From: Cryobacterium sp. CG_9.6
GTDB lineage: Bacteria; Actinomycetota; Actinomycetes; Actinomycetales; Microbacteriaceae
DNA length: 64,000 bases
Assembly (NCBI RefSeq): GCF_029893365.1
Contig: NZ_JARXUZ010000001.1
Span: 186,001 to 250,000 of the forward strand
Direction of reading: 5' to 3'
Of this stretch, positions 6,040-20,305 are shown piece after piece. The position numbers and the translations under genes are program-made. Every line of letters starts with the position of its first letter. Position 1 is the first letter of the stretch. Under the pieces are notes generated by a model. That model searched no databases. It worked only from the letters and a program-made list of their open reading frames with translations, and was not told where the DNA came from.

Positions 6040-6710
6040 TGATCGAGCTTGTCGGGAGCCTACACGGGGTGTCTACTACGTTAAAGCGGTGTCGTGGCAC
6101 ATACCCCCAAACCCCTCCCCCAACGCACAGGGGTCTCGACAGGCTCGACCAACGACGTGGGAACCCCCCATGGACCAACCCAGCTCCAACCCCACTCCCC
6201 CTCCCCCCCGCTGATCGAGCTTGTCGAGATCCCCACACAGGTCCCGGCGCGCTCAGCAACGCACGCACCACCCACGGACACTAACCGCGAAGTGCTGCAC
6301 CCGCTACACAGGGGTCTCGACAGGCTCGACCAACGACGTGGGAACCCCCCATGGACCAACCCAGCTCCAACCCACTCCCCTCCCCTCCCCCCGCTGATCG
6401 AGCCTGTCGAGATCCCCACACAGGTGTCTCGGCACGCTCGACCAGCGACGCACGCACCACCCACGGACACTAACCGCGAAGTGCTGCACCCGCTACAAAC
6501 CCATCTCGACAGGCTCGACCAACAACGTGGGAACCCCCCATGGACCAACCCAGCTCCAACCCCACTCCCCTCCCCCCGCTGATCGAGCCTGTCGAAATCC
6601 GCACACAGGTGTCTCGACACGCTCGACCGGCGACGTGGGAACCCCCCATGGACCAACCCAGCTCCAACCCCACTCCCCTCCCCCGCTGATCGAGCCTGCC
6701 GAGATCCCCA
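6040..6710. repeat. Array of four palindromic repeat modules (array A)
   Basis: The gap between ddl and the GIY-YIG gene holds four near-identical modules of about 100-113 bp at roughly 6130-6241, 6311-6423, 6503-6607 and 6609-6708, plus a single arm near 6040. Each has a left arm TCTCGACAGGCTCGACCA and a right arm TGATCGAGCCTGTCGAGA, which are inverted copies matching at 17 of 18 positions. The arms flank a pyrimidine-rich core of about 60-70 bp. The spacers after modules 1 and 2 share an identical stretch of about 50 bp. Open frames in this array are artefacts of the repeats. The pattern resembles a REP/MITE-type element rather than CRISPR, since spacers are not unique. Confidence 0.9.
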
Positions 6711-6735
6711 CTGGCCTCAATTCACATCACGCTTC

Positions 6736-9061: not shown

Positions 9062-9500
9062 ACGGGCTTGTCGGGACCCAAGCTGTGGCACTGGCGGGGA
9101 TCTCGACAAGCTCGCTCACCGTGAAGGCACTAGGGCGCGACATATCTTGGACACGGACAACCCCGCTGGTCGAGCCTGTCGCGACCCGGACTCTGGCGCA
9201 CTGGCCGGGATCTCGACAAGCTCGATCATCGGAAAGAGTGCAGAGGCGCACGCCAGCCTCGGCACTAACAACGGCGCTGGTCGAGCTTGTCGAGACCCCG
9301 GTTCTGGTGAGCTCGCGGGGATCTCGACAAGCTCGATCAGCGTGGAGTGCGGCGGTCGAGCTTGTCGAGACCCACTCCGTGGTGAGCTCGCGGGGATCTC
9401 GACAAGCTCGATCAGCGTGGGGTCCGGCGGTCGAGCTTGTCGAGACCTAGAGCAAGCTTCTGCGCGGAGATTTTGACAAGCACGATCAGCGTGGGGTGCG
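9062..9500. repeat. Array of palindromic repeats (array B)
   Basis: Between the insertion sequence and parS 3 the two orientations of one motif alternate. TCTCGACAAGCTCGATCA-type copies start near 9101, 9211, 9322 and 9397, and GGTCGAGCTTGTCGAGACC-type copies near 9168, 9279, 9354 and 9429. A decayed copy lies near 9471. The two best units repeat with a period of about 75 bp (GTGAGCTCGCGGGGATCTCG near 9307 and 9382). The motif core TCGACAAGCTCGA is shared with recF and, with one changed base, with array A. No gene is credible here. Confidence 0.9.
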
Positions 9501-9525
9501 CTGGTCGAGAGCACGCCGCACGCAT

Positions 9526-18778: not shown

Positions 18779-20305
18779 GTGCGCGTTACCCACCTGTCGC
18801 TGACTGACTTTCGTAATTACACGGAAGCAGAGGTTCCCCTTCGCGCGGGAGCCAACCTCATCGTGGGTCGCAACGGGCAGGGTAAGACCAACCTGGTGGA
18901 AGCCCTCGGCTATCTCAGCACGCTGGGCTCCCACCGGGTCTCCGATGACAAGGCCATGATCAGGGCCGGGCAACCGTCAGCAATCATTCGCGCCCGCCTC
19001 GAATACAACGGGCGCGAGATCCTGACAGAGGTGCAACTCAACCGCGTTGGACTCAATCGGGCACAGGTAAACCGGTCAGCGATTCGCACCCGGGATCTTC
19101 CGCGGTATTTTTCCAGTGTTGTTTTTGCCCCTGAGGATCTCGCGCTGGTTCGCGGCGACCCGTCGGGGCGGCGCCGGTTTCTGGACCAGCTGCTCGTGCT
19201 GCGCTCCCCCAGAATGTCGGGCGTGATTGCCGACTATGAACGTGTATTGAAGCAACGAAACAGCCTGTTGAAGTCGGCCCGTGGTTCTATGGCCAAGCAG
19301 AATCAATTGAGCACTCTTGACATCTGGGATGAGCGGCTGATTGGGCTGGGCTCGGAGATCATTGACGCGCGCAGCGAGCTGGTTTGGTTACTCGGTGAAC
19401 CTCTGCGCGCTGCCTATCGTGCGGTAGTTGGGGATGATCACGGCCCCCAGCTTGTGGAGTTGCTGAGCGTGTTTGGCGCAGACGGTGACGCGGGGGTTTC
19501 TGCACGCGGTGTCCCAGGTGGGCGAGGGGTCTCGACAAGCTCGACCAGCGAAATGGGGGCGTCGCAGGGGATAGAGGCGCGTGAGACTACGGTTGGGGCC
19601 GGCGCTGTGAGTGATGATGCGGTTCGCGGGGTCTCGAGCGGCGAGGGCGGCTCGAGTAGTGGGGCCGCGGCGACCGCAGACGGTGACGCGGGGGTTTCTG
19701 CACGCGGTGTCTCGGGTGGGCGAGGGGTCTCGACAAGCTCGACCAGCGAAATGGGGGCGTCGCAGGGGGTAGGGGCGCGTGAAACAACGGCTGGGGCTGG
19801 CGTTGTAAGTGATGATGCGGCTCGCGGGGTCTCGAGCGGCGAGGGCGGCTCGAGTAGTGGGGCCGCGGCGACCGGCGACGGTGAGGCGGGGTGGAGCGGG
19901 CGAGACGGGACGCGGGAAGCTTTTCGGGAAGCGTTGGCCGGAGTTCGCGGCAAAGAACTGGAACGCGGAATCACACTCGTGGGTCCGCACCGGGACGATC
20001 TGATTTTCATCCTCAATGATCTGCCGGCCAAGGGCTACGCCAGCCACGGAGAATCGTGGTCATTCGCACTGTCGCTGAAACTTGCATCCGCTGAGCTATT
20101 GCGTCGTGATTCAGCCACCGGCGACCCCGTTTTGATTCTCGACGACGTGTTCGCCGAGCTCGATCAGTCGCGTCGGCGTCGTCTGGCCGAGGCCATCAGT
20201 GAGTACGAGCAGGTTCTGATTACGGCTGCGGTGCTGGACGATGTTCCCGAGGCATTCACGGCCCACACGATTCATATTCGAGGCGGTGCCGTCGTCGATG
20301 CCTGA
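18779..20305 (+). CDS. recF: DNA replication and repair protein RecF with a repeat-derived insertion
   Basis: RecF helps load RecA at gaps and is an SMC-like ATPase. The protein has Walker A GRNGQGKTN (residues 30-38), the YRAVVGDD region of lobe II, GPHRDDL, the ABC signature region SHGESWSFALSLKLA and Walker B DPVLILDDVFAELD. At 508 residues it is about 130 longer than usual homologues (370-400). The excess is a Gly/Ser/Ala-rich insertion at residues 234-365 made of two 66-residue repeats that differ at six residues, plus a short third start. The insertion sits between conserved blocks, in a loop that varies among RecF proteins, and keeps the frame. GTG at 18779 is 3 nt after the gnd stop; the 3' end overlaps dciA by 8 nt. 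Confidence 0.95.
   Translation: MRVTHLSLTDFRNYTEAEVPLRAGANLIVGRNGQGKTNLVEALGYLSTLGSHRVSDDKAMIRAGQPSAIIRARLEYNGREILTEVQLNRVGLNRAQVNRSAIRTRDLPRYFSSVVFAPEDLALVRGDPSGRRRFLDQLLVLRSPRMSGVIADYERVLKQRNSLLKSARGSMAKQNQLSTLDIWDERLIGLGSEIIDARSELVWLLGEPLRAAYRAVVGDDHGPQLVELLSVFGADGDAGVSARGVPGGRGVSTSSTSEMGASQGIEARETTVGAGAVSDDAVRGVSSGEGGSSSGAAATADGDAGVSARGVSGGRGVSTSSTSEMGASQGVGARETTAGAGVVSDDAARGVSSGEGGSSSGAAATGDGEAGWSGRDGTREAFREALAGVRGKELERGITLVGPHRDDLIFILNDLPAKGYASHGESWSFALSLKLASAELLRRDSATGDPVLILDDVFAELDQSRRRRLAEAISEYEQVLITAAVLDDVPEAFTAHTIHIRGGAVVDA
19478..19890 (+). repeat. 198-bp tandem duplication inside recF carrying the palindromic repeat core
   Basis: Copy 1 is 19478-19675, copy 2 is 19676-19873, and a third copy begins but stops after about 18 bp. 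By eye the two copies differ at about 11 of 198 positions. Each contains GGTCTCGACAAGCTCGACC (about 19530 and 19728), the same motif found in array B. The unit length is exactly 66 codons, so the frame is preserved, and the motif is read as GVSTSSTS. Confidence 0.95.

Follow-up and report, generated by a model that had tools for sequence, protein, structure and literature searches.

An exceptionally long recF gene in a member of the cold-adapted genus Cryobacterium raises two questions. First, where do the additional residues in the middle of its product come from? Second, do they record one accident in one strain, or has the same site been struck in other members of the genus as well? The starting point was the window, a stretch of 64,000 nucleotides (C1:186001-250000) from the genome of Cryobacterium sp. 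(G000; 3.54 Mb in 2 contigs).

Overall features of the window RecF

The recF gene is uninterrupted in the list of open frames, and its product scores 279.3 bits against TIGR00611, above the cut-off of 172 bits, and so passes the equivalog threshold. The first-pass annotation, made from the letters alone, had regarded RecF as intact apart from an insertion, and this holds. The neighbours of recF are presumably a 6-phosphogluconate-dehydrogenase-like gene on one side and, on the other, a short gene that is followed by gyrB. Many of the best named matches to the window RecF come from Cryobacterium, with that of Cryobacterium psychrophilum (P0003) being the nearest named RecF in the protein tree.

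The linker comprises 154 residues in the window RecF versus 26–70 in the 60 other RecFs compared, and in D. radiodurans RecF (2O5V) about 20 residues are found at this position (204–224). Among the 120 proteins listed of 7,993 scored relatives, the window's own protein is the sole RecF longer than 424 aa. In an AF2 model based on 90 sequences (mean pLDDT 61), the linker runs from a strand (224–228) to a helix (375–396), and residues 237–373 have a pLDDT below 50 and no secondary structure; the model is a mediocre one, as the pLDDT also drops below 50 at four short stretches within the first 118 residues, which belong to the conserved core. The tolerant, disordered loop proposed at first is in agreement with this predicted disorder. 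Judged from the order of the structural elements, the linker would depart from domain II, which in TTE RecF contains the signature motif together with a pair of long helices that putatively line a DNA channel (PMC5794780).

Composition of the tandem units

The linker had been described as holding two 198-bp copies and the start of a third, derived from an intergenic palindromic repeat. Both copies were recovered with the same boundaries (Table 1), and TRF gives a period of 198, 2.1 copies and 93% matches. They are in codon phase, with neither frameshift nor stop. The third copy amounts to 18 bp, in which 8 of the first 10 bases match and 7 of the next 10, after which the similarity stops.

Exact copies of the 19-mer GGTCTCGACAAGCTCGACC are located at 19528 and 19726, with three more in the array at 9.28–9.45 kb; the motif thought to be common to the recF units and array B is thus identical in both. 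The 13-bp half copy is found twice in the window, where 0.01 would be expected. Taken together, the repeat-matching part makes up roughly 40 of the 198 bp of each unit. When unit 1 with its margins (221 bases) was searched against 57 genomes, the long matches among those listed were two, both being the units themselves; the others listed were short, mostly 26–50 bp around the 19-mer (window 19523–19564), apart from two further matches of greater length (80 and 76% identity). For most of the 198-bp unit, no outside match was among those listed from the 57 genomes. The start of the unit (GADGDAG.SAR) resembles the native linker of P0003 (GADDEAGSSAR), and each unit looks like a piece of native linker joined to one element and to a sequence that would have no recognisable source apart from the half element in it. 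The in-frame presence of a dispersed repeat in RecF stands, whereas most of the 132 residues in the two units are not recognisably repeat-derived.

It could be argued that the duplication is an assembly artefact, since among the 120 listed relatives there is no second independent sequence of this length. We find this hardly credible: the units differ from each other at 11 sites, the contig is 3.35 Mb long, and similar arrays exist at other loci of G000.

Table 1. Positions of recF, its tandem units and the element-bearing arrays in the window.
Feature	Position	Strand	Description
recF	18779..20305	+	508 aa, GTG start, intact RecF core, 154-aa linker; TIGR00611, SMC_N, PDB RecF chains
Tandem unit 1	19478..19675	+	66 codons, residues 234-299; TRF and unit alignment
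Tandem unit 2	19676..19873	+	66 codons, residues 300-365, 11 differences from unit 1; TRF and unit alignment
Partial third copy	19874..19891	+	18 bp, reads GDGEAG; TRF and unit alignment
REP-like element, unit 1	19523..19550	+	28-bp extended consensus with 1 mismatch; 19-mer core 19528-19546 exact; reads GVSTSSTS
REP-like element, unit 2	19721..19748	+	28-bp extended consensus with 1 mismatch; 19-mer core 19726-19744 exact
Half copy of element, unit 1	19625..19637	+	13 bp; motif search
Half copy of element, unit 2	19823..19835	+	13 bp; motif search
Tandem array A with element, outside recF	6134..6711	.	periods 189 and 108; TRF and motif search
Tandem array B with element, outside recF	9279..9509	.	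period 75; TRF and motif search

The dispersed repeat and its arrays

With up to three mismatches allowed, the 19-mer has 18 matches in the window against 0.05 expected. GGTCTCGACARGCTCGACC is present in 41 copies in G000, which makes it a high-copy, dispersed sequence; it occurs in 46 of 57 same-genus genomes with up to 419 copies per genome, and beyond the genus in 2 of the 43 other genomes searched. At up to two mismatches, all 57 places in G000 are located on contig 1. Contig C2 (~187 kb) holds none of them, with about 3 expected by its length.

The element is imperfectly palindromic, and inverted pairs of it are present in the window array. A single copy folds only weakly, with a 4-bp stem for the 19-mer and a z of −0.6 to −1.0. 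By eye, neither a GTAG nor a CGTC tag was found beside the core GGTCTCGACARGCTCGACCA[GAC]CG, and Rfam found three tRNAs only in the window. PF01797, the profile of the RAYT or Y1 transposase, matched none of the 36 same-genus genomes searched and 5 of 14 control genomes.

TRF detects three arrays with a period of at least 50 in the window (A, B and that of recF), all three of which hold the element. Arrays A and B contain copies in both orientations. At other G000 loci, chosen because they bear the element, 7 of 9 arrays hold it, and so do 24 of the 27 arrays with a period of at least 50 in 400 kb of G004, in stretches chosen around copies. Element-bearing tandem units (TRF periods ~51–303 bp) consist of elements plus other DNA, and the counts in the window and in G004 tie the REP-like repeat to tandem duplication. 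In G004 (L148–L167), with its 419 copies, many arrays have a period of ~52–54 bp, yet none lies in recF.

Of the 57 G000 copies (up to two mismatches), 15 fall in a 14-kb part of the window around dnaA and recF, a clustering which might mean that the repeat is maintained near the origin as a binding site or structure and that its translation in recF is incidental. Such a role at the DNA level is in our view very improbable. The 15 copies represent only three loci, whose tandem repetition raises the count; as a single strand, the repeat folds weakly; the single codon register described below would be unexpected if only the DNA mattered; and high-copy relatives such as G004 have no element in recF.

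Recurrence of the element in recF linkers of the genus

Linkers were read from 61 sequences, namely those of 56 same-genus genomes, a second recF of G043 and four from other genera, with G050 excluded for having no single open frame in recF. The second recF of G043 is distant and possibly a contamination; the lack of a single open frame in the recF of G050, and likewise in the dnaA of G030, possibly reflects sequencing errors.

At up to three mismatches, the motif was found in the recF linker of 14 of the 56 same-genus genomes, giving 22 matches in 6,600 bp, with none in the 60,183 bp of recF core and none in the 98,170 bp of flanks at the same 56 loci. The case described in the first-pass annotation is accordingly not an isolated one, as the motif is present in the same linker in all these genomes and in both orientations. 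All 22 matches are in register 2, decayed variants included, in which the forward orientation reads VST[S/G]ST-like and the reverse VEPVET-like peptides. As a control, 30 dnaA loci (from the best-scoring 30 of 57 genomes, G004 not among them, of which 7 belong to the 14 that carry the element) with a linker of 49–54 aa were searched, and gave no match in 130,346 bp.

Could Gly/Ser/Thr linkers in GC-rich codons resemble the repeat simply by chance? The weakest matches, those of G008, G012 and G056 with 3–4 mismatches, speak for it, particularly as the ACA of the element corresponds to ACG or ACC in G008 and G056, and these three may partly be convergent low-complexity sequence. As an account of the whole pattern, convergence is most unlikely. 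Full 19-mers are present in the recF of 6 genomes, the match in the window spans 28 bp and thus extends past the core, and copies in reverse orientation exist. Fifteen of the 61 linkers fit the element at up to four mismatches, and the same fit was reached by codon-shuffled linkers in 0 of 300 trials for 13 of these 15 genomes, and at rates of 0.003 for G056 and 0.007 for G012. Codon use argues in the same direction: 9 of 12 VST-type rows have ACA as their first Thr codon, against 6% of Thr codons in the recF core, and all 5 VEPVE-type rows encode Pro by CCT, against 8% in the core, the rows having been chosen by peptide pattern with G003, G012 and both G032 copies uncounted. For the strong matches, low-complexity convergence was rejected on this rare codon use. 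G031 and G040 were excluded as carriers, with 6 mismatches and shuffle rates of 0.09 and 0.127.

Phylogeny of presence

On a DNA tree built from recF without the linker, the presence of the element changes 5, 6, 7 and 7 times at mismatch thresholds of 1, 2, 3 and 4, respectively, each change being a gain or a loss. In the 4-mismatch set, 5 of the 7 changes are forced by starred branches, and the number rises to 9 when orientation is counted too. Some joins in this tree are between long branches, mainly those of the outgroup and of other rows without the element. Separate recent gains of the element in recF would be the simplest reading of this distribution. If seven captures were independent, a single register in all of them would be expected by chance at about (1/3)^7, or 5 in 10,000, a rough figure that ignores relatedness. 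The load of repeats in a genome does not predict its residence in recF, since G004 has 419 copies and none there, and the element is absent from recF in all 12 genomes of the G004 clade.

The protein tree (28 RecFs) places the window RecF together with P0003, P0004, P0005 and P0009, none of which has the element. The RecF of MLB-32 is nearest to that of P0006 (96% identical), which also lacks the element; the fork holding MLB-32 is drawn open. One shared insertion for G000 and MLB-32, in view of their similar STSE.GA.QG, was weighed and set aside as the less likely reading, because similar bases follow the element at other places in G000 and because the nearest relative of MLB-32 has no element.

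Age and constraint of the duplication

Between unit 1 and unit 2, dN is 0.043 and dS 0.096 by NG86, computed on few sites, and 0.044 and 0.138 by LWL85. For the first 165 codons of recF in G000 and G016, dN is 0.044 and dS 1.27 (NG86, near saturation). With a dS of about 0.10 against about 1.27, the duplication is much younger than the split of G000 and G016. The comparison of recF across relatives thus bears out that the duplication came later, the four nearest RecFs being without the element altogether. The dN/dS between the units is about 0.45 (NG86, few sites), near a relaxed level, versus about 0.035 for the recF core against G016; judged from these rates, the linker is under far weaker constraint than the RecF core.

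This difference weighs on the idea that the element has been exapted, that is, that its peptide or the length of the linker is selected and alters RecF dimerisation, DNA binding, contact with RecR or turnover. The recurrence at one site, the codon register shared by 22 of 22 matches and the two units free of frameshift and stop would all fit functional exaptation, as would the location in domain II, whose long helices form the putative DNA channel in TTE RecF in the part of PMC5794780 available. We nevertheless hold it to be unlikely, as the ratio between the units is near relaxed, the linkers of close relatives differ in sequence and length, and most genomes have no element. An equally doubtful, more far-reaching proposal is that the linker is a genus-wide docking site where the repeat has repeatedly been domesticated as a functional peptide (VST[S/G]ST or VEPVET) and itself promotes tandem duplication, so that the tether length of RecF evolves in a minisatellite-like manner.

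Probable capture of the repeat by a permissive linker

Presence, position, both orientations, the single register, several changes on the tree and the 66-codon duplication were all observed. We consider it probable that the domain II linker of RecF is a permissive site at which a REP-like repeat of Cryobacterium, short, dispersed and imperfect as a palindrome, has been captured repeatedly, with wrong registers purged and, in G000, the unit duplicated. In such a mechanism, the element would have reached the linker by insertion or copying instead of arising in place, and purifying selection would have eliminated copies that fell into a different register or into another part of recF. A short repeat, GACGGTGANGCGGGG, could have given rise to the 198-bp duplication through slippage or unequal exchange. 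RecF would tolerate the resulting disordered tether and be affected little, if at all.

The locus amounts to a natural experiment that can be counted: the same repeat, in the same linker, several times, in both orientations and in one register. The set of recF linkers makes selection on repeat-derived peptides testable, and the window RecF illustrates that repeat and duplicated DNA can supply about one quarter of a repair protein's length.

Element copies in other genes

Apart from recF, G000 has three element loci that fall inside or border on a Pfam-matched gene; coding status was judged by Pfam, the codon log-odds coding call being unreliable and mis-calling recF itself. A HAD hydrolase and a UbiA-family gene of uncertain start carry the same VST frame close to their beginnings, and a LysA-like decarboxylase has it in its tail. 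One 2-mismatch match inside a helicase gene of G000 is in another register (GLDGLEP) and may be due to chance. Copies are also located just upstream of two further G000 genes. In G004, copies are found near the start of a GH42 gene and within an alpha/beta hydrolase-AMP ligase fusion (L149:13597-16983), whose interdomain linker contains repeat-coded peptides in two registers and both orientations. Because other registers are seen outside recF, the register rule is established for recF and not beyond it. In both G000 and G004, an element lies just upstream of the start of the ribonucleotide reductase small chain (L125:2411-3448 and L154:4185-5237), a position that is possibly conserved.

Comparison with known systems

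BIME/REP repeats are clustered in arrays. The Cryobacterium repeat is likewise arrayed, with the difference that its tandem units mix elements with other DNA and that one array is coding. Neither this repeat nor the recF case was found in the titles or abstract beginnings of open-licence papers, the repeat sequence strings were absent from the open-licence papers searched, and recF is absent from the available part of PMC7381226.

By analogy, the precedents for repeat capture are REPs inside repair genes and the Rickettsia palindromic elements (RPE), both treated in the available part of PMC3733652. The intragenic GTAG/CGTC REPs described there in 2013 are short palindromes, mostly intergenic and some within genes, with many replication and repair hosts, and in two Xanthomonas species REPs occupy about the same recB site (PMC3733652). 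The Cryobacterium repeat is alike in being a short palindromic repeat present within a repair gene, and differs in sequence, in having no GTAG/CGTC tag by eye in its consensus, in the absence of a Y1 transposase from the 36 genomes of the genus searched and in residing in recF and not recB; as far as the available text of PMC3733652 goes, the recF case adds both orientations with one register, plus the tandem 66-codon amplification. RPEs are located inside protein genes and read as peptide, with many host genes and with RPE-1 being longer (as described in the same part of PMC3733652). The likeness lies in a palindromic repeat in coding frame with the host protein, here RecF, intact. In contrast to RPEs, which on that description are spread over many genes, the recF element has a core of 19–28 bp and one linker has been struck repeatedly. 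The recF case is real and known in kind, and unusual in its recurrence and its register.
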